A DNA stretch of 64,000 nucleotides from Clostridia bacterium. Its GTDB lineage: Bacteria > Bacillota > Clostridia > Oscillospirales > Acutalibacteraceae. Below are positions 2,632-62,841 of the stretch, one piece after another (position 1 is the stretch's first letter; every line of letters starts with the position of its first letter). The notes beneath the pieces were generated by a model. That model saw nothing but the letters and a program-made list of their open reading frames with translations. It ran no database searches and was not told the origin of the DNA. Location: contig JAFQRA010000021.1 of the NCBI GenBank assembly GCA_017410325.1, positions 62,001 to 126,000 of the forward strand, written 5' to 3'. The position numbers and the translations under genes are program-made.

Positions 2632-5355
2632 TTATTTTATTCCTCCGGAAATCAAATCATAAAGAATAAAGCCAATCGGTACAAGGTGAATTGCCGCAAC
2701 GGCGGCAACCGAAGCAAACGCAAAGCCGTAATAAACTGTTCTTTCAATTACTTTGGGTATATTAAAATTTTTCTTTTTCATCAGCCAAATAAACGCCGTG
2801 AGAAGAACGCCGAAAACGGTGAGAACAATGCCGGACTTTTCTCCTTCGGGCTGCCAGTCGATTTCAACCTTTCCGCTGCCGTTGGGTAATTCAACCGCAA
2901 GGTAAGCGCCGAGAGCACAGTGTATATCGGCTTTTTCACCGTTGATTTTACAGGTGAAGCCGTTGTCAAAAGTAACTGGGATGAAAAGGTATCTGTTTTC
3001 GCCCGTTGTATTGTTATAATCGAAGTTTAAAGACGATTTACCGACCTTTTCGTTGGTCACGGTGTCCTTGCAGAGACTGTTGAGAGCGGTCATTTTGTCA
3101 AGCGGCATTGAGGCTAACTGTACCGTTTTGTCGCCGAATTTCTGGCCGTTTATGCACTCAACTACTATCTCAACCTCTTCACCCTCGCTGAAGCTTCCGA
3201 GCAGAAGCGTGCCGTTTACGGCGGCAGAGGGATAGTAGCGGTAATCCGTGTATTTGTGGTAGGACGCAAAAACGGTTTCGCCGTTGACCGACATCTTGAA
3301 GCTTTGCTTTTGGTATTCACCTGCATTCAGGTAAAGCTCTTCGTTTTTGCCTGCCGTGTAGCGGAAAACAAGCTTGTCGGGCGTGCTTTCAACGAGCTTT
3401 ATATTCTCGCCGTCAGCCGTTCTTGTACATATATCAAACAGCTTATCATTATCGCCCGTAAAAATCTGCCAGAGCTTGTTCTGTACCTCAAAACGCTCGT
3501 CAACGCTGATTTCATTTATACTGCCGAGCAGCTCTTCACTGCCCAGCAAGCCGAACTCAACTGCATATTCGTTTTCGTAAAGACTGAAGTTTTCGGTAGA
3601 ATCAAGCAGAGCGTATCTGTTGCTTGCACTGTGATGATTCCTCATAATCATCTTTTTAACGCCGATAATGCCGTCGGTAAACGCCGTGCCGCCCGAATCA
3701 AGCAGACGGGTATACTGTACGCTGTAGCCGAGCACTTTTGCCGTATTCTGTGCGGAAAGGGAAATATAGTGCGTCCAGTTTGAAAGCGCAGGAGTGCCTA
3801 TAACAAACGGATAGTTCGTGTTAAGGCTCGTGTCGGCGTTTTTGATTCTGCCCATTTCGCCGCAGCCGGTGTCAAGCGACGAAACCTCTGCACAGTATTC
3901 AAGGAAGGACGGGCTGTTGTAAAGGTATTCCTCGCTTTCCTGCTGGTGCTTGTTTGCAACTCCGCCGTAGCAGATGCCCGCAGTTTGCACGATGCACAGC
4001 ACGAAGCAGAAGGCGCGGATGATATATTTTTTCTGAAAAAGAAGAAACGCAAAAAGCGGTATGCCGAAGCCGAAAAGAAGCAGAAACGAATTGTATTTTA
4101 CGTCCGCTGCGGAAGCGGTTTCTTCGAGTGCCGTGCTGATTGAGCCGAGAATATTTTCCGCAAAATAGATAAGCCCGTAAAGCATACCCACCGTGAGCAG
4201 GGCGCAGAGCACGAGCAGACCGAAACGCAGGAATTTGTTTTTCAGCGTAACGATTGCTTCGGAATACTGTTCAATTCCCGCAAGCGAGAAGCACAGCAGC
4301 ATAAACACGCAAATGAAGAAAAATCTTGTCGGAAACTGGACGTAGCTGCCCATGTGCCAGATAAGGTTTATGCTCTCAATAAAAATCGGAAGCAGAAGAA
4401 TGAGCGTTGACGTGAGTACGAAAAAAGCCTGCTTGATTTTTTTGTCTTTGAAGAGCTTTACAATAAAAACAACGGTCAGCACGATTGCAAGCTGCAGGCC
4501 GATGAGAAGTATGAGCTTGTTGTGAAGCTGTGTATCGGGTTTTGCCTTGAGTATCTTTTCAAGTACGCCTTCTTCACTGCCCGTGCTGGTTTCGAAGCGC
4601 TTTGAGCCCAGGGTCTGCAACGCTGCAGGAACAGCGGCAAAGCAGGAAAGCAGGCCGCCGGCAAGCGTTGAAAGGCCAAGCAAACAAGCCTGTCTGCCGC
4701 GTTTTTCTTTTGGAGAAATCAGTATGATATAAAGTCCGCTTAACATAAATACGGCAAGCGTAATCATAAAGCCGTGGTACACGGAATAGAAAAGCGTTAC
4801 CGCAAAGGCGGCAATATACATAAACGGCTTGTCCTCGTCAAAAAGGCGCTTCAGGCCGTAAATGATAAACGGAAAAACAACAACGAAATCAAGCCATGAT
4901 GTGTTTGTATAATAGAACATTGAAAACGCACTCATGGCGTACATAACGGAAAACAGAGTGTGCCATATTCCGTCGGGCTTCGGGAACATTTTTTTAAAGC
5001 AATATTTTGAAGCGAAGGCCGCCGCCGAAACCTTAAGCACTACATAAATGCCAACGGCATAAAGCAGGCTGTCTCTGGGAAAAAGACACAGCACAAGCAA
5101 AAGGGGAGTGGGGTTGCCGAAGTTGGAAACGTTGGTGCCCAGTCCCGACAGCCAGTCCCAGTCAAGCGCCTTGCCGCCGTGAATCCAGTCATATAAATGG
5201 TAGAGCGCAGGCACGGCACCCTGTGCCATATCATCGTAGCATATATTGCCCGTGCCGAAGGGCCAGACACCCTTGAGCGCATAAACAAAGAGCATTATAA
5301 CTGCGCATATCAGAGCGGAATCCAACAGCGTGAGGCTTTGGAGTTTCTTTTTCAT
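2632..5355 (-). CDS. YfhO-family polytopic membrane protein, 907 aa
   Basis: Large membrane protein of the YfhO family, whose studied members (Bacillus YfhO, Listeria GtlB-type) act in glycosylating lipoteichoic or wall teichoic acid from lipid-linked sugars outside the cell. About a dozen hydrophobic segments fill residues 8-470, followed by a long extracellular region (about 480-830) and two C-terminal membrane spans. The start is put at MKKKLQSLTLL (ATG at 5355), 14 nt after the upstream stop with AAGGA before it; a start at 5433 would run into the upstream gene. It ends flush with the parA start and carries the parA ribosome binding site. Target polymer unknown. Family call firm, function inferred. 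Confidence 0.85.
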   Translation of the reverse strand: MKKKLQSLTLLDSALICAVIMLFVYALKGVWPFGTGNICYDDMAQGAVPALYHLYDWIHGGKALDWDWLSGLGTNVSNFGNPTPLLLVLCLFPRDSLLYAVGIYVVLKVSAAAFASKYCFKKMFPKPDGIWHTLFSVMYAMSAFSMFYYTNTSWLDFVVVFPFIIYGLKRLFDEDKPFMYIAAFAVTLFYSVYHGFMITLAVFMLSGLYIILISPKEKRGRQACLLGLSTLAGGLLSCFAAVPAALQTLGSKRFETSTGSEEGVLEKILKAKPDTQLHNKLILLIGLQLAIVLTVVFIVKLFKDKKIKQAFFVLTSTLILLLPIFIESINLIWHMGSYVQFPTRFFFICVFMLLCFSLAGIEQYSEAIVTLKNKFLRFGLLVLCALLTVGMLYGLIYFAENILGSISTALEETASAADVKYNSFLLLFGFGIPLFAFLLFQKKYIIRAFCFVLCIVQTAGICYGGVANKHQQESEEYLYNSPSFLEYCAEVSSLDTGCGEMGRIKNADTSLNTNYPFVIGTPALSNWTHYISLSAQNTAKVLGYSVQYTRLLDSGGTAFTDGIIGVKKMIMRNHHSASNRYALLDSTENFSLYENEYAVEFGLLGSEELLGSINEISVDERFEVQNKLWQIFTGDNDKLFDICTRTADGENIKLVESTPDKLVFRYTAGKNEELYLNAGEYQKQSFKMSVNGETVFASYHKYTDYRYYPSAAVNGTLLLGSFSEGEEVEIVVECINGQKFGDKTVQLASMPLDKMTALNSLCKDTVTNEKVGKSSLNFDYNNTTGENRYLFIPVTFDNGFTCKINGEKADIHCALGAYLAVELPNGSGKVEIDWQPEGEKSGIVLTVFGVLLTAFIWLMKKKNFNIPKVIERTVYYGFAFASVAAVAAIHLVPIGFILYDLISGGIK

Positions 5356-55810: not shown

Positions 55811-56917
55811 ATGATTAAAGTTACTTTGACAAACGACATATTGAAAAATATTACCGCAATAGATGAAAACCGTTTTTCATTGCGGACGGTCAATATGCCT
55901 ACCATTACAAAAAACAGGCTGAGAAAAAACTCCAAAAAGAAAAGCTCCTATGCTTCAAACAAAATCGAGGGTAATCCGCTTACCGAAACACAGGCAATTG
56001 AAGCTATGGAGAGGGATTCACACAAGCATTTTCTAAAGCCTGAGCAAGAGGTGAGGAATTATTTTCTTGCACTCAATCTTCTCGAAGAAAAGCTGAAAAA
56101 GAATACTCCTTTTTCAAAGGAACTTCTGCTTGAAGTACAGGCAATGGTTGAAAAGGGCGCATCTAAAGAAAAAATCGGTCTGCGCGGTGCAATGCCTCCC
56201 GGAATGCTGTTTGCAGTTTATGACAGCCTAACGGGCGAGCCTGAATATATACCGCCCGAATATACCGATATTCCCGTGCTACTTGATGAGCTCGTTGAGT
56301 ACGTCAACACTACCGACGACCATCCGCTTATTGTTGCGGCTGTGGTGCACTATCAGCTCGTTACCATCCACCCATTCGAAGACGGAAACGGCAGAACGGC
56401 AAGGCTGATGTCAGGATACGTTCTTGACCTGAACGGATACGGCTTTAACGGCATAGGCTCACTGGAAGAGTATTTCGCCTATGACCCCGATGAATATTAT
56501 GCCTCGCTTCAGATGGGTTTGCCTGCACTATACTATTCGGGCAGGGAAAATCCGCCTCACCCCGAAATATGGGTAAATTATTTTCTACGCATGGTGGAGC
56601 TTTATTCAAAAAAGGTATGCGAGCTGTCTTTATCATCCGTAACGGACGAATTGGATTCCGCTTTATCGCATCTGAACGAAAAGGAAAAGGAGTTTCTATC
56701 ATTCCTGCTGAAAAAACGTTTATTTGAATTCAAGCCGATTGACGTGAGTAAAATGCTCAACGTTACCAACAAAACCGTTATCAACCGCTGTGCCAAGCTG
56801 ACGGCAAATGGCTTTCTCGTTCCGAACATTGTAAAAGAAAGAGTCCGTTCATATTCATTAAGTGAATTCGCAAAAGCAAATTGCGAAGCGATTTGTTCAA
56901 AAACCAACAGTAAATAA
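55811..56917 (+). CDS. Fic-domain protein (class II, self-inhibited) with C-terminal wHTH, 368 aa
   Basis: Likely AMP-transferase (or related nucleotidyl-transferase). The active loop HPFEDGNGRTAR (187-198) is complete: catalytic His187, metal Asp191-type acid, and the Arg pair. The N-terminal helix SNKIEGN (49-55) fits the (S/T)xxxE(G/N) inhibitory motif with Glu53, so it carries its own antitoxin-like switch (class II). The C-terminus (about 290-355; IDVSKMLNVTNKTVINRCAKLTANGFL) is a winged helix-turn-helix. Chromosomal members often modify host-cell proteins of the bacterium itself; target unknown. The 191-residue membrane orphan follows 13 nt later. Confidence 0.92.
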   Translation: MIKVTLTNDILKNITAIDENRFSLRTVNMPTITKNRLRKNSKKKSSYASNKIEGNPLTETQAIEAMERDSHKHFLKPEQEVRNYFLALNLLEEKLKKNTPFSKELLLEVQAMVEKGASKEKIGLRGAMPPGMLFAVYDSLTGEPEYIPPEYTDIPVLLDELVEYVNTTDDHPLIVAAVVHYQLVTIHPFEDGNGRTARLMSGYVLDLNGYGFNGIGSLEEYFAYDPDEYYASLQMGLPALYYSGRENPPHPEIWVNYFLRMVELYSKKVCELSLSSVTDELDSALSHLNEKEKEFLSFLLKKRLFEFKPIDVSKMLNVTNKTVINRCAKLTANGFLVPNIVKERVRSYSLSEFAKANCEAICSKTNSK

Positions 56918-56930
56918 GGAATGAAATATA

Positions 56931-57506
56931 ATGAGCAGGTATTCAAAACGAAAAACTACTTATACAAATAAAATGAGCGTCAAAAGCTTCGTTGTGGCTT
57001 TTGCGGTGATTGCTTTGTTTTTGATATCTGCCATTTATTTTGTTTCAAGTATATTTTCAGAACCTAAAACCCAAGCAACTGTTGAGGAAGTTTGGAAAGC
57101 AATTGAAACTGAGGGGTTTGAACCTAAAGATATAACCCAAGATTATTACAATGGCGATTCTGATGCTTTTATGTATTTGATTAAATGTATTGCATTCGAT
57201 AAAAATGATATACATTTTGAATTTTTTGAGTTTAATAATGAAGACAGTGCAAAAGATCTTTACGGTCAAGCACACTATAAAATAACAACAACTCATAATT
57301 CGTGGCAAAGAATCGAAACAGATAATCGAATGGCTAATTATCGCATTTACACTTTAGATGCAAACGGTCAATATGGGGTTGCGATTTTTGTTGGCAATAC
57401 CGCTGTTTACGCTCATAGTCAATCGCAAAGCAAAAACAAAATTGACAAAATTCTTGACTCAATTGACTATTTAAGACCTGGCAACAACAAAGAAAAAACA
57501 GAATAA
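56931..57506 (+). CDS. Membrane-anchored orphan downstream of fic, 191 aa
   Basis: Not recognised. A short basic N-terminus (MSRYSKRKTTYTNK) precedes one transmembrane helix (about 19-41), and about 145 residues face outward: Glu/Asp-rich, with FMYLIKCIAFDKNDIHFEFFEF and YRIYTLDANGQYGVAIFVGNTAVYAHSQ in a beta-rich pattern. Base composition is visibly richer in A+T than neighbouring genes, hinting at transfer with fic. It begins 13 nt after fic with AAGGAATG upstream and ends before the ctsR regulatory region. Could be a Fic partner or an unrelated accessory gene. Confidence 0.72.
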   Translation: MSRYSKRKTTYTNKMSVKSFVVAFAVIALFLISAIYFVSSIFSEPKTQATVEEVWKAIETEGFEPKDITQDYYNGDSDAFMYLIKCIAFDKNDIHFEFFEFNNEDSAKDLYGQAHYKITTTHNSWQRIETDNRMANYRIYTLDANGQYGVAIFVGNTAVYAHSQSQSKNKIDKILDSIDYLRPGNNKEKTE

Positions 57507-57575: not shown

Positions 57576-57592
57576 GGTCAAAGAAGGTCAAA
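57576..57592 (+). promoter_or_regulatory. CtsR operator 1
   Basis: GGTCAAA (57576-57582), GAA, GGTCAAA (57586-57592): the CtsR tandem heptad with the canonical 3-bp spacer, about 90 bp upstream of the ctsR -35. Confidence 0.88.
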
Positions 57593-57710: not shown

Positions 57711-57734
57711 AGTCAAAGAAAGTCAAAGTCAAAC
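57711..57734 (+). promoter_or_regulatory. CtsR operator 3, at the transcription start
   Basis: AGTCAAA (57711-57717), GAA, AGTCAAA (57721-57727), with a further partial GTCAAA (57728-57733). It covers the +1 region, ideal for repression. Confidence 0.9.
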
Positions 57735-57759: not shown

Positions 57760-58218
57760 GTGAACATCAGCAACACTATTGCAAAGCTTATTATGGATAT
57801 GCTTGAGGCGGACGGCGGAAGCGCCGAAATGCAGCGAAACGAGCTTGCACAACTTGTCGGCTGTGTGCCCAGCCAGATAAACTACGTTATCTCTTCACGC
57901 TTTACGCCCGAGCAGGGCTATATAGTCGAAAGCCGCAGAGGCGGCGGCGGTTACATCCGCATCACCCGTGCGGCATACACTACGCCGGGGGATATGGTGA
58001 TGCACCTGCTCAACCATATGGGCACGGCTATTGATGAAAAGACGGCACGGGCGCATATAATAAACCTTGCAGGCAGAGAAATTATTTCCGCAAAAACGGC
58101 AAAAATTATGCTTGCGGCAACGAGTGACAACTGCTACAGGAATCTTGACCAACCGGTAAGAGATACAGTCCGTGCATCTGTATTCAAGCAGATGCTTTTA
58201 CAGGTAATCAATTCATAA
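57760..58218 (+). CDS. ctsR: Heat-shock repressor CtsR, 152 aa
   Basis: Represses clp and its own operon at normal temperature. MNISNTIAKLIMDMLEADGGSAEMQRNELAQLVGCVPSQINYVISSRF is the winged HTH; ESRRGGGGYIRITR (about 57-70) is the glycine-rich wing that senses heat. Released from DNA and degraded under stress via McsB/ClpC. GTG start 57760 with AAAGGAAG at about 10 nt. Three CtsR boxes precede it, so autoregulated. Confidence 0.97.
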   Translation: MNISNTIAKLIMDMLEADGGSAEMQRNELAQLVGCVPSQINYVISSRFTPEQGYIVESRRGGGGYIRITRAAYTTPGDMVMHLLNHMGTAIDEKTARAHIINLAGREIISAKTAKIMLAATSDNCYRNLDQPVRDTVRASVFKQMLLQVINS

Positions 58219-58243: not shown

Positions 58244-58759
58244 ATGTTATGTCAGAATTGTGCGAAGGCACAGGCAACCACACACATCAAAAGAGTTGTA
58301 AACGGAGAAACAACCCAGCATCACCTGTGCTCACAGTGTGCAAAGGAATTGGGCTACACCGATATGTTTTCGGGCTTTGCACCCTTGAGCCTGAGCGATT
58401 TCTTTTCGGATTTCCTCGGCGACGTCGGCAGAAAGGCTGTCGGTGCAAAGGTTGAGCGCTGTCCGAAATGCGGTAATTCCTTTAACGATATCGTAAGGGA
58501 AAGCCGCCTGGGCTGTGCGGAATGCTACAGAATTTTCTTCGACAAGCTTCAGCCCTCGCTCGAAAGAATTCACGGCAGAGCGCTTCACTCGGGCAAGAAA
58601 ATCGAAGTCACGCGTGAGGAAGCGGCAGTACCCACTAAAGAGGAGCGGATTGCACAGCTTAAGGTGAAGCTTGAAGAAGCTGTAAAGGAGCAGGAATTCG
58701 AACAGGCGGCGAAGCTGCGTGACGAAATCCGTGAGCTTGAAGGAGGCGAAGGAAAATGA
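58244..58759 (+). CDS. mcsA: McsA, zinc-finger activator of McsB, 171 aa
   Basis: Four CxxC pairs: Cys3/Cys6, Cys29/Cys32, Cys73/Cys76 and Cys91/Cys94 (the last in LGCAECY), with a C-terminal UVR domain (about 135-168; EQEFEQAAKLRDEIRELEGG). It activates the arginine kinase McsB and senses metal or redox stress. AAGGAGGAA precedes the ATG. Overlaps mcsB by 4 nt. Confidence 0.95.
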   Translation: MLCQNCAKAQATTHIKRVVNGETTQHHLCSQCAKELGYTDMFSGFAPLSLSDFFSDFLGDVGRKAVGAKVERCPKCGNSFNDIVRESRLGCAECYRIFFDKLQPSLERIHGRALHSGKKIEVTREEAAVPTKEERIAQLKVKLEEAVKEQEFEQAAKLRDEIRELEGGEGK

Positions 58760-59763
58760 GTAAATGGTATATTGGTAATAGTGAAAAATGCAGGGTTGTT
58801 GTCAGCACGAGAATACGCCTTGCGAGAAATCTTGAGGATTATCCCTTCCCCGCAAAGCTTGACACCGCAGGCAAAGCACAGGTAAACGCTCTTGTAAGAG
58901 ATGCGCTTCTGGGCAGCTGCGGCGAGGATTTAAGCTACATCGAAATGGAAAACCTTACCCGTGCGCAGGCGGTTTCAATGGCGGAGCGCCACCTTGTCAG
59001 CCCCGAATTTGCAAGCGAGGTCAAGGGCAGAGCACTTCTGCTTTCCGAGGATGAGTCCGTCAGCATTATGCTCTGCGAAGAAGACCATATCCGCCTGCAG
59101 GTTATGGAGGCAGGCCTTGCTCTCGACAGTGCATACAAGCGTGCGGACGACCTTGACAACGCAGTTGCTTCAAAGCTAAGGCTGGCGTTTGACGAGCGCA
59201 TCGGCTTTCTCACCCAGTGCCCGACCAACCTCGGCACGGCTATGAGAGCCTCGGTTATGCTTCACCTGCCTGCGCTTGCAAAAAGCGGTCAGATTACAAA
59301 AATCGCCTCAACCGTATCAAAGCTCGGTCTTATCATAAGAGGTGCTTACGGCGAAGGCTCAAGCCCCAACGGGGATATGTATCAGCTCAGCAACCAGGTA
59401 ACGCTCGGCATCAGCGAGGAAACTGCGCTGAGTAACCTTAAATCCATTGCACAGCAGCTCGTTGCGCAGGAATTGGCGCTTCGTGAGCAGATTATCAGAA
59501 ATCCCGTCTGGGAGGACAAAATCTTCCGTGCGCTGGGCATACTGAAAAATGCACGGCTTATGAGCTGTGAGGAATTTATGCAGCTTTCCTCACTCGTTCG
59601 CCTCGGTGCGGCGGAGGGACTCCTCGACGTGAGCCTTGAAGCACTCAGCGAACTCAATGTTGATATGCAGCCCGCAACGGTAAACGCTAGGGAGGGCAGA
59701 ACACTTGAGCCTTCGGAAAGAGATGCAATACGGGCAAAGGCAGTTCGTGAAGCACTCGGTTAA
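58756..59763 (+). CDS. mcsB: Protein-arginine kinase McsB, 335 aa
   Basis: Phosphorylates arginines on aggregated proteins and on CtsR, marking them for ClpCP. VVVSTRIRLARNLEDYPFP (14-32), MENLTRAQAVSMAERHLVSP, SVSIMLCEEDHIRLQV (101-116) and LTQCPTNLGTAMRAS (152-166, catalytic-site Cys155) are the guanidino-kinase motifs; C-terminal segment binds pArg. Full length. The stop codon lies at the first bases of an intergenic repeat, and clpC does not follow directly, as it normally would. Confidence 0.96.
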   Translation: MSKWYIGNSEKCRVVVSTRIRLARNLEDYPFPAKLDTAGKAQVNALVRDALLGSCGEDLSYIEMENLTRAQAVSMAERHLVSPEFASEVKGRALLLSEDESVSIMLCEEDHIRLQVMEAGLALDSAYKRADDLDNAVASKLRLAFDERIGFLTQCPTNLGTAMRASVMLHLPALAKSGQITKIASTVSKLGLIIRGAYGEGSSPNGDMYQLSNQVTLGISEETALSNLKSIAQQLVAQELALREQIIRNPVWEDKIFRALGILKNARLMSCEEFMQLSSLVRLGAAEGLLDVSLEALSELNVDMQPATVNAREGRTLEPSERDAIRAKAVREALG

Positions 59764-59793
59764 TTAGGAATTCGGAATTATGAATTAGGAATT
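59762..59793. repeat. AATTAGGAATT direct-repeat unit at the mcsB stop
   Basis: AATTAGGAATT at 59762-59772 and again at 59783-59793, separated by CGGAATTATG. The same core appears as an inverted repeat at 5894-5913. The second copy supplies TTAGGA, 9 nt before the methyltransferase ATG. Confidence 0.75.
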
Positions 59794-59799
59794 TTTACT

Positions 59800-60387
59800 A
59801 TGGACAAAGACTTTTTATTGAAGGCATACGGACAGTGCTACGACTCCGAAGCAGGACCTTGGAATCTGTCCGTAAAAAACAAATACCTTGAATATATGTT
59901 TGCAAAGTTCTTCGAGGAAAATTTCTCGGTTGAAAAGAATATGTGTATTTGCAACGTCGGTATCGGCGCAGGGTATTGGGACAGATATCTGTCATATAAG
60001 CTGAAAGACGGCAGCCTGACAAGTATTGATATCAACGCTCTTTCGTGCAGACAGTTAAAGGAATGTCTTGAAAACGAAAATAATCCCAATAGAGTAAAAA
60101 TCATCAATTCAGACGTAATGCTGATAAATGATTTGGACGATAGCTTTGACATCGTGACTATGGTAGGTTCTTCACGATTGGAAAGCGGTCTTTACGAGTC
60201 AATACTCAAAAAAGTTTTTTCCTTAGTAAAGCAAGGCGGCAGTTTATATTATCAATCGTTTGACAGAAAAGAAACAAAAGAAGAATTTGAAGCGTTGTGC
60301 AATGCCAATAATATGAAGATAGTAAATTATCTGCAAGATGATAATTACGGCTTTAATGCACAGTATTGGAAGGTACTCAAGGAGTGA
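59800..60387 (+). CDS. Class I SAM-dependent methyltransferase inserted in the clpC operon, 195 aa
   Basis: A Rossmann methyltransferase: motif I CNVGIGAGYWDRYLS (51-65), acidic end of strand 2 at Asp77 (TSIDINA), motif II-like SDVMLINDLDDSFDIVTMVGSSRLE (104-128) and post-motif LVKQGGSLYYQSF. N-terminal 40 residues (YGQCYDSEAGPWNLSVKNKYLEYMF) suggest a small-molecule or protein cap. Substrate unknown. It sits between mcsB and clpC, where other Firmicutes have nothing or radA-type genes after clpC. The ribosome binding site appears to come from the repeat; AAGGAG in its last codons serves clpC. Its middle is richer in A+T than mcsB. Function in protein quality control is inference from position only. 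Confidence 0.82.
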   Translation: MDKDFLLKAYGQCYDSEAGPWNLSVKNKYLEYMFAKFFEENFSVEKNMCICNVGIGAGYWDRYLSYKLKDGSLTSIDINALSCRQLKECLENENNPNRVKIINSDVMLINDLDDSFDIVTMVGSSRLESGLYESILKKVFSLVKQGGSLYYQSFDRKETKEEFEALCNANNMKIVNYLQDDNYGFNAQYWKVLKE

Positions 60388-60393
60388 TGAAAA

Positions 60394-62841
60394 ATGTACA
60401 AATTTACAGGTTTTACGCAGAAAGCCAATTCGGCGCTCAACGCAGCAGTTGAGGTTGCCGAAAATATGGGACACACCTATGTCGGCAGTGAGCACCTGCT
60501 TGCAGGTCTGCTTAAAACCGACGGCGGTGTTGCCTGCACGGCACTTAACGCCAGAGGTATCGGTATTGACGATGTTGAAGGTGTGCTCAAATCCACGGTC
60601 GGTGTCGGTACGCCTACCGTGCTTGTGCCCGACGATTTTACGCCAAGACTCAAATATATAATTGAGCTTTCCGTTGCCGCCGCCCGTTCAATGGGGCATA
60701 CTTACACGGGCACGGAGCATCTGCTCATTTCGCTTATCAAGGAAGGCTCAAACTGCGCCGTGAACATTATCACCAAGCTCGGCGTTTCGCCTTCGGATGT
60801 GCTCGCAGACACGGTAAAGGCGGTAAGCTCAAATTCCCAGTCGTCAAAGCAAAGCAACGAAAAGGGCGGCAAGGCAAACGGCAAATCCGACACGCCTACG
60901 CTTGAGCAGTTCGGCAGAGACCTGACCGATTACGCCAAAAACAACAAAATCGACCCCGTTATCGGCAGGTCGAAGGAGATAGAAAGAGTTATTCAGATTC
61001 TTTCACGCCGCACAAAAAACAACCCCTGCCTTATCGGTGAGCCCGGTGTAGGCAAAACCGCAATTGCAGAGGGGCTTGCGCTCAAAATTGCCTCGGGCGA
61101 GGTGCCGGAAATACTTGCAGACAAGCGCATTGTTTCGCTTGACCTTACGGGTATGGTTGCGGGCACAAAGTACAGAGGCGATTTTGAGGAAAGAATCAAA
61201 ACGGCACTTGAAGAGGTTGCAAAAAGCGGCAACGTAATTTTGTTTATTGACGAGCTTCACACCCTTATCGGTGCAGGCTCGGCAGAGGGTGCGGTTGACG
61301 CCGCAAACATTCTCAAGCCCTCACTTGCAAGGGGTGAAATTCAGGTTATCGGAGCGACAACGCTTGAAGAATACCGCAAGCACATCGAAAAGGATGCCGC
61401 ACTTGAAAGGCGTTTTCAGCCCGTTACTGTAGGTGAGCCGAGTGAGGACGAGGCGGTGGAAATTCTTAAGGGTCTGCGCGACCGATATGAAGCCCACCAC
61501 AAGGTAAAAATTACCGATGAGGCAATCGTTGCCGCAGTAAAGATGTCCGTAAGATATATCGGCGACCGTTTTCTGCCCGACAAGGCGATTGACCTTGTTG
61601 ACGAGGCGGCCTCAAAGGTGCGTCTTCGCGCCTTTACCGCACCGCCCGACCTTAAAGAGCTTGAGGAAAAAATCAAAGCTTTTGACGATGAAATGGCGGC
61701 GGCAATAAACTCGCAGGAGTTTGAGCGCGCAGCTAAAATCAGAGATGAAAAGCGCGAGGTACAGCTTGAATTAAAGAAGCAGAAGGACGGATGGCAGCAG
61801 CGCAGCTCAAGCAGTGCAGGCGAGGTTACGGCAAACGAAATTGCCGAAATCGTTTCGGGCTGGACTGGTATTCCCGTTATTGAACTTACAAAGGAAGAAA
61901 GTGCAAGACTGCTCAATATGGAAAACGAGCTGCACGAGCGCATTGTAGGGCAGGACGAAGCCGTAAAGGCTGTTTCCCGTGCAATAAGAAGAAGCAGAGT
62001 GGGTCTCAAAGACCCGAAGCGGCCAACTGGCTCGTTCATTTTCCTCGGCCCTACGGGCGTGGGTAAAACCGAGCTTTGCAAAACGCTTGCCGCCTCAATG
62101 TTCGGCGATGAAAACGCAATGATAAGGCTCGATATGTCCGAATATATGGAAAAGCACACCACCTCACGCCTTGTCGGCTCGCCTCCCGGCTACGTCGGCT
62201 ATGACGAGGGCGGTCAGCTCACCGAGCGTGTGCGCCGCAAGCCCTATTCGGTAATTCTGTTTGACGAAATCGAAAAAGCACACCCCGACGTGTTCAATAT
62301 GCTGTTGCAGATTCTTGATGACGGTATACTCACCGATTCCCAGGGGCGAAAGGTCGATTTCAAAAACTGTATTATAATTATGACCTCAAACATCGGCGCA
62401 AAGCTGATTGCGGGCAGCGGCTCAGCGCTAGGCTTCGGCAACGAAAAGGGCAGTTCAATGAGCGATGAAAAAATCAAAGAAGCGGTTATGGGCGAGCTCA
62501 AAAAAGCGTTCCGTCCCGAATTTCTCAACCGCGTTGACGACATCATCGTTTTCCGCAAGCTTGTCAAAGAAGACATCAGAGAAATTGCAAAGCGTATGCT
62601 GTCCTCTCTTACAAAGCGTGTTGCGGCTATGGGAATAACCGTTGAGTTTGACGAAACCGCCACGGAAAAAATTGCCGATGCAGGCTTTGACCCCGTTTAC
62701 GGTGCAAGACCCCTGCGCAGAGCAATTCAGTCGCAAATCGAGGATAAGCTTTCCGAAGAAATCCTGGAAGGTAAAATAAATGCAGGTGAAGCCTGTGTCT
62801 GTAAGGCAGACAGTGACGGCTTTGTGTTTGAAAAGAAATAA
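60394..62841 (+). CDS. clpC: AAA+ unfoldase ClpC, 815 aa
   Basis: Hsp100 partner of ClpP. N-terminal double Clp_N repeat (FTQKANSALNAAVE 7-20; FTPRLKYIIELSVAAARS 82-99) binds phospho-arginine. Walker A sites GEPGVGKT (215-222) and GPTGVGKT (552-559); Walker B VILFIDELHTL (281-291) and VILFDEIEKAH; UVR-like middle coil (432-463). The middle domain marks ClpC rather than ClpA. ATG 60394 is 6 nt after the methyltransferase stop, and its AAGGAG lies in that gene. A terminator follows. Confidence 0.96.
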   Translation: MYKFTGFTQKANSALNAAVEVAENMGHTYVGSEHLLAGLLKTDGGVACTALNARGIGIDDVEGVLKSTVGVGTPTVLVPDDFTPRLKYIIELSVAAARSMGHTYTGTEHLLISLIKEGSNCAVNIITKLGVSPSDVLADTVKAVSSNSQSSKQSNEKGGKANGKSDTPTLEQFGRDLTDYAKNNKIDPVIGRSKEIERVIQILSRRTKNNPCLIGEPGVGKTAIAEGLALKIASGEVPEILADKRIVSLDLTGMVAGTKYRGDFEERIKTALEEVAKSGNVILFIDELHTLIGAGSAEGAVDAANILKPSLARGEIQVIGATTLEEYRKHIEKDAALERRFQPVTVGEPSEDEAVEILKGLRDRYEAHHKVKITDEAIVAAVKMSVRYIGDRFLPDKAIDLVDEAASKVRLRAFTAPPDLKELEEKIKAFDDEMAAAINSQEFERAAKIRDEKREVQLELKKQKDGWQQRSSSSAGEVTANEIAEIVSGWTGIPVIELTKEESARLLNMENELHERIVGQDEAVKAVSRAIRRSRVGLKDPKRPTGSFIFLGPTGVGKTELCKTLAASMFGDENAMIRLDMSEYMEKHTTSRLVGSPPGYVGYDEGGQLTERVRRKPYSVILFDEIEKAHPDVFNMLLQILDDGILTDSQGRKVDFKNCIIIMTSNIGAKLIAGSGSALGFGNEKGSSMSDEKIKEAVMGELKKAFRPEFLNRVDDIIVFRKLVKEDIREIAKRMLSSLTKRVAAMGITVEFDETATEKIADAGFDPVYGARPLRRAIQSQIEDKLSEEILEGKINAGEACVCKADSDGFVFEKK

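Follow-up and report, generated by a model that had tools for sequence, protein, structure and literature searches.

Why does the ctsR–mcsA–mcsB–clpC stress operon of this Clostridia bacterium carry a methyltransferase gene between mcsB and clpC, and does that gene take part in arginine phosphorylation? We analyzed the whole 64-kb stretch of DNA surrounding the operon, hereafter called the window, together with related genomes. The gene is probably a horizontally acquired accessory class I SAM-dependent methyltransferase that came in as a nearly bare open reading frame (ORF) and now forms an extra cistron under CtsR control. Hitch-hiking on the operon is a likelier account of it than membership in the arginine-phosphorylation pathway.

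ORF and Pfam analysis of the window identified, all on the forward strand, the operon repressor gene ctsR (57760–58218; CtsR PF05848, 4e-31, and PF17727, 2.7e-19), mcsA (58244–58759; UVR motif, 1.9e-09, and operon position), the protein arginine kinase gene mcsB (58756–59763; ATP-gua_Ptrans PF00217, 4.7e-63), and clpC (60394–62841; AAA_2, 7.1e-71, ClpB_D2-small, 1.2e-26, and Clp_N, 5e-23). Between mcsB and clpC, and co-directional with both, lies an ATG-initiated ORF of 195 codons (59800–60387) that matches Methyltransf_25 (2e-09) and contains the motif I sequence CNVGIGAGYWD, just as the initial annotation had read it. The locus is like the subtilis-type clpC operon, as described (PMC12634643), in gene order, Pfam content, and CtsR operators; it differs by this fifth gene between mcsB and clpC and by having the native clpC leader replaced by the end of the extra gene. 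A search of mostly open literature at title and abstract level returned no report of a methyltransferase in this slot. A Fic-like protein (55811–56917), its motif HPFEDGNGRTAR recognized by eye, and a membrane-like protein (56931–57506) are both encoded directly upstream of the ctsR promoter region.

The slot itself was surveyed in 45 genomes searched for McsB (a set of 15 and a second set of 30 from the same family), 36 of which bear it. clpC follows the mcsB stop by 8–265 bp in 31 of these 36, in keeping with the assertion in the initial annotation that the gene order is among the most stable in Firmicutes stress operons, and the methyltransferase occupies the slot in two, the genome under study (G000) and G003. 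No clpC match lay within ~1.5 kb of mcsB in three of the 36 (L059, L074, and L076). A different long frame follows mcsB in L059; in L074 a different gene comes after the mcsA–mcsB pair, and neither a clpC match over the following 1.5 kb nor an upstream ctsR match was found. In G327, whose methyltransferase gene is located elsewhere, the gap between mcsB and clpC measures 413 bases (L108, 1088–1500) and by eye contains dispersed non-coding repeats; non-coding insertions are also found in this spacer in G004 and G010. The survey and the 413-base gap thus describe a gene order that is stable, yet a spacer that tolerates added DNA.

Transcription of the gene can be judged from its upstream control elements. 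Two perfect heptad direct repeats conforming to the CtsR operator consensus (PMC12634643), GGTCAAAGAAGGTCAAA at 57576–57592 and AGTCAAAGAAAGTCAAA at 57711–57727 (0 mismatches each), precede ctsR on the forward strand. Three operator matches with at most one mismatch occur in the window against 0.16 expected, and every one of the 11 genus members has at least one operator ahead of ctsR within the stretch examined. A terminator scan listed no terminator-like site between ctsR and clpC; its two matches fall inside clpC. Promoter-like matches numbered 8, compared with 5.5 (sd 2.1) in shuffled sequence, and those on the forward strand include one inside the methyltransferase gene and one inside ctsR. 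With operators upstream on the same strand and no terminator-like site in between, the gene has the attributes of a CtsR regulon member, and the sequence makes it likely that it is co-transcribed from the CtsR-controlled promoter and induced by heat, as initially proposed.

Both junctions of the gene bear on how it is translated. At the 5′ side, a degenerate 7-base tandem repeat, (AATTNNG)n, spans 32 bases of the forward strand 3′ of mcsB (59762–59793, AATTAGGAATTCGGAATTATGAATTAGGAATT); it overlaps the mcsB stop codon (59761–59763), starting at its second base, and a further 6 bases separate its end from the methyltransferase ATG. The repeat exceeds chance (0 of 100 shuffles at ≤3 mismatches), and a 26-base piece of it has six copies in the genome at ≤2 mismatches, versus none for a reversed-pattern control. 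The gene does begin at a repeat that sets out from the mcsB stop, as first noted; the idea that the repeat is part of the methyltransferase unit did not hold. G008 (L046) has the identical 32 bases after mcsB and G005 a shorter form, both without the methyltransferase. The other 15 homologue loci inspected, two of them (L036 and L037) with short flanks, lack the pattern for 1.5 kb around the gene. Because G008 carries the same 32 bases without the gene, the repeat belongs to the spacer, and we rejected it as the boundary of an inserted unit. It may nevertheless supply the weak methyltransferase ribosome-binding site AGGA. The length of the repeat after mcsB varies between species (the window, G008, and G005; L046 and L047). 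At the 3′ side, the gene ends in AAG GAG TGA, and its final two sense codons, AAGGAG (60379–60384), lie 9 bases before the clpC ATG at 60394, so direct reading confirms that they hold the clpC Shine–Dalgarno sequence on the forward strand. A native clpC leader (GTGGAAGGAGTAGTGATTT... or close; CTTTGTGGAAGGAGTARTGATTT...) is common to G008, G005, G004, and G001, all without the gene, and was not found in that form in the window.

The protein has the hallmarks of a class I SAM-dependent methyltransferase, with a full Rossmann core and a glycine-rich motif I, and such activity is predicted from its sequence. Methyltransf_25 (PF13649) is matched at 38.5 bits against a curated cut-off of 27, residues 50–147 covering profile positions 1–97 of 97. 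In an alignment of 15 family members, 43 columns are invariant, with motif I and portions of the N-terminal AGPWN/NKYLEYM block among them; G54, G56, G58, and D77 are invariant and D105 nearly so. The full-profile match of the window protein and the motif I glycines and D77 of the family are common ground with PF13649; a distinctive conserved block at the N terminus (AGPWN..NKYLEYM) sets the family apart as a tight subfamily. For the window protein, no NCBIfam family with a named function scored above cut-off; across the 15 members, seven NCBIfam families matched weakly (best 3.8e-08). Profile matches to the PDB were weak and limited to the common core (best 1.4e-4, MJ0882). What emerges is a small, strongly conserved Clostridia methyltransferase family without a named function in the profile libraries searched. 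Our guess from sequence is a small-molecule substrate, perhaps some toxic or antibiotic-like compound, handled independently of McsB and ClpC.

A defense function suggested itself, since all 15 members match the PADLOC model of Mad2 (PDLC04134; best 1.1e-17), the methyltransferase of the anti-phage MADS system. The window protein aligns to positions 279–431 of 492, however, so the similarity covers one stretch, and a lone gene of 195 residues is set against a 492-position model and judged on the gene alone. D/NPPY/F is the motif of amino-methylating DNA methyltransferases, and it is absent from the 15-member alignment. Neighboring genes differ from locus to locus, and the phage, plasmid, and viral-contig searches described below found no relatives. 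We consequently rejected identity with Mad2, similar over one stretch only, and regard a related anti-phage role as very improbable.

The distribution of the family is patchy. Of the 11 genomes in the genus, two have the slot filled, G000 and G003, whose methyltransferases are 79% identical; it is empty in the other nine, including the closest relatives G008 and G005 (McsB 98% and 97% identical). At E ≤1e-30, the gene was present in 3 of 398 genomes in a family-wide search, in the same three among 394 in an order-wide draw, and in 1 of 391, the genome under study, in a class-wide draw. A pattern-seeded scan of genome contigs disclosed at least 15 Clostridia loci (46–79% identity): L028, which is the G003 operon, and 14 further homologue loci (L029–L042). 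These 14 and the G327 copy all lie outside the mcsB–clpC slot. Carrier records name Oscillospiraceae, Lachnospiraceae, Eubacterium, Anaerocolumna, and Agathobacter hosts; several record titles name animal guts, with goat cecum and roe deer omasum among the sources. The homologue search suggested in the initial annotation therefore yielded the same slot in G000 and G003 and scattered homologues elsewhere. Within the G000 genome there is no second copy, the next match reaching 26% identity (E 0.03), and a paralogue was rejected on this basis. Weaker matches in G013 (35%) and G002 (28%) are frames of 248 and 224 residues that by eye resemble other methyltransferases, and were not counted as carriers. 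tblastn found no relatives in plasmids or phages, nor did two pattern-seeded scans of viral contigs, which use short exact peptide seeds and could miss distant relatives; a phage or plasmid origin was rejected accordingly.

Homologues outside the genus occupy other slots, one of them recurrently. In L030, L038, and L040, which are Oscillospiraceae or Clostridia metagenome-assembled genomes, a member of the same protein family (58–66% identity) sits between the aconitase (acn) and isocitrate dehydrogenase (icd) genes. It begins no more than 2 bases past the acn stop, or overlaps it (2, 1, and −2 bases, respectively); in L040, icd comes some 290 bases further on. This is housekeeping metabolism, as opposed to the stress operon here, and no McsB was found in these hosts. 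At L036, isocitrate dehydrogenase lies downstream, and the 207 bases available upstream contain no aconitase match. We fetched 30 order relatives by isocitrate dehydrogenase, out of 120 genomes with a match; none carries the methyltransferase within the fetched stretch, and acn lies upstream of icd in 21 of the 30, with a gap below 200 bases in 19 of these 21 (the others being L085, 304, and L081, 683). In L081, no methyltransferase match falls in the 683 bases that separate icd from the acn match. In L029, the gene follows a tmRNA gene by 290 bases; this tmRNA gene (4359–4710; tag DNTSVAMAA) comes after a frame that resembles smpB by eye. At the remaining homologue loci, neighbors differ from one locus to the next. 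In the Anaerocolumna locus L033 (5713–7761), downstream of the methyltransferase come a NUDIX frame, an APH-type phosphotransferase, and a frame that looks HD-like by eye, together a small group of enzymes for small molecules.

We also looked for traces of transfer. None of 20 neighboring frames from 12 homologue loci was a transposase or integrase by Pfam (17 had a family, 3 had none), and no repeat pair flanked the gene on both sides in the 7 loci tested of 17. The gene thus shows none of the features expected of mobile-element cargo: transposase or integrase, flanking repeats, or phage or plasmid relatives. G+C of the gene is 37.6% in the window, where ctsR to clpC have 50–53%, and 34.4% in G003; for the two together, the range from ctsR to clpC is 48–53%. 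The gene is also far below its surroundings in L029, L031, L037, L039, and L040, whereas in L030, L032, L033, L034, L041, and L042 it differs from them by no more than 0.035. The family tree joins the two mcsB–clpC copies as sisters (100/98), the only firmly supported branch among 14 inner ones, and groups the four icd-linked copies at 80/97. With a single firm branch in 14, the case for transfer between distant hosts leans more on patchiness and composition.

The initial annotation had envisaged methylation of a protein or small molecule in the arginine-phosphorylation pathway. On such a reading, the gene would be a functional partner of that pathway and ClpC, recruited in this genus, that methylates McsB, ClpC, CtsR, or their substrates under stress. 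The same slot and orientation in two species with sister proteins (100/98), the upstream CtsR boxes, and strong constraint on the gene speak for such a partner; its occurrence across genomes does not. We examined 17 carriers, namely G000, G003, G327, and the 14 genomes behind L029–L042. The ATP-guanido kinase domain PF00217 is present in 6 and absent in 11; completeness is not stated for the 14 genomes behind L029–L042, so gaps could account for some of these absences. Since none of the 14 control genomes of the PF00217 search matched, they provide no positive control, and G000 and G003 serve instead. A search by McsB sequence in the 15 carriers other than G000 and G003, sensitive enough to detect 37% identity, gave the same division, with McsB in 4 and none in 11. 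In these 4 carriers, all from outside the genus, the next gene found after mcsB is clpC (gaps ~24 to 413 bases), with no methyltransferase in between; the gene lies elsewhere. Linkage to mcsB and clpC is therefore confined to 2 of 17 carriers, both of one genus, in which 9 of 11 members, the closest two included, have an empty slot. McsB absence combined with unlinked placement led us to reject pathway partnership as the main reading; we consider it improbable, and the passenger insertion named as the alternative fits better. Hitch-hiking is favored because most carriers examined show no McsB-type kinase. A McsB match was also missing in 9 of 30 same-family genomes taken regardless of the methyltransferase, and the McsB-type arginine kinase seems often lost in the host family. 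With such loss frequent in these bacteria, the comparison says no more than that the methyltransferase is independent of McsB. G019 and G026, both listed as 99% complete, are among the genomes without a McsB match.

How the gene came to be in the same slot in two species is a separate matter, and the histories considered here are not exclusive with the acquired-cistron explanation. The gene is under purifying selection: between G000 and G003 it has dN 0.123, dS 1.85, and a fourfold-site difference of 0.535, giving a dN/dS of roughly 0.07, a rough value because dS is near saturation. mcsB (dN 0.103, dS 2.01, fourfold difference 0.529) and mcsA (0.150, 1.70, and 0.442) have diverged similarly. 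The annotation had counted absence from close relatives and scattered homologues as marks of a random insertion. Both were found, which largely bears this out, but ‘random’ is too weak a description, because G003 holds the same slot and the gene is under purifying selection. Given the shared slot and a divergence like that of mcsA and mcsB, the gene could have been resident for a long time and serve some local role.

Such residence would follow from one insertion in the ancestor of an eight-species clade and vertical descent, with G000 and G003 as the survivors of some 5–6 losses. The common slot and orientation, the sister relationship in the family tree, and the matching divergence agree with this, although the match counts for little with dS near saturation. 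The operon protein tree, however, places G000 and G003 in two well-supported separate groups, and a nucleotide tree, which positions G004 and G006 differently, still keeps the two apart. The distribution therefore calls for at least two changes, or one gain and 5–6 losses, and G005, G008, G004, and G001 all keep the native clpC leader. We rate a single insertion as a real possibility that falls somewhat short of an even chance. Close to an even chance, by our estimate, is that the gene arrived at least twice in a permissive spacer, or spread within the genus by homologous recombination through mcsB and clpC. Two changes are the most parsimonious count, the gene flanks in G000 and G003 show no likeness by eye, and the spacer has taken up other, non-coding insertions in G004, G010, and G327. 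Against this, sister genes reaching one spacer independently in the same orientation are unlikely a priori, and no exchanged tract is evident beside the gene in G000: at the 3′ end of mcsB it matches G005 at 89%, the level seen elsewhere, its clpC 5′ end is 98% identical to G008 and 90% to G005, and the 81% identity to G008 at the mcsB end is assigned to G008.

Taken as an acquired extra cistron, the gene would have reached the mcsB–clpC spacer as a nearly bare ORF, drawn its ribosome-binding site from the pre-existing heptad repeat, and become one more cistron transcribed under CtsR control, to be de-repressed along with the operon by heat or protein stress. Its final codons would supply the clpC ribosome-binding site, and clpC translation would thereby be kept. 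Somewhat more weakly, the enzyme may act on a small molecule independently of McsB and ClpC, its location reflecting hitch-hiking. A more general scheme, which we think unlikely, is that a bare, apparently promoterless methyltransferase family spreads without recognizable transposase or repeats and settles almost scarlessly between genes of conserved operons (mcsB^clpC in one genus, acn^icd in a second group), here giving the downstream ribosome-binding site and becoming stress-induced. The locus illustrates that a very stable stress operon can accept an extra gene while the downstream gene keeps a translation signal. It also illustrates that operon location alone is a poor guide to function, as occurrence across genomes speaks against the arginine-phosphorylation link.

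Two further features of the spacer region were observed. The mcsB–clpC spacers of G003 (L051) and G010 (L049) share ~150 identical bases with palindromic parts, together with an identical clpC leader, despite a difference of ~10% between their mcsB genes. In G008 (L046), the last ~105 bases of mcsB are 81% identical to the window, compared with 90–100% in the other segments of that comparison, possibly reflecting a short tract of gene conversion next to the variable spacer.
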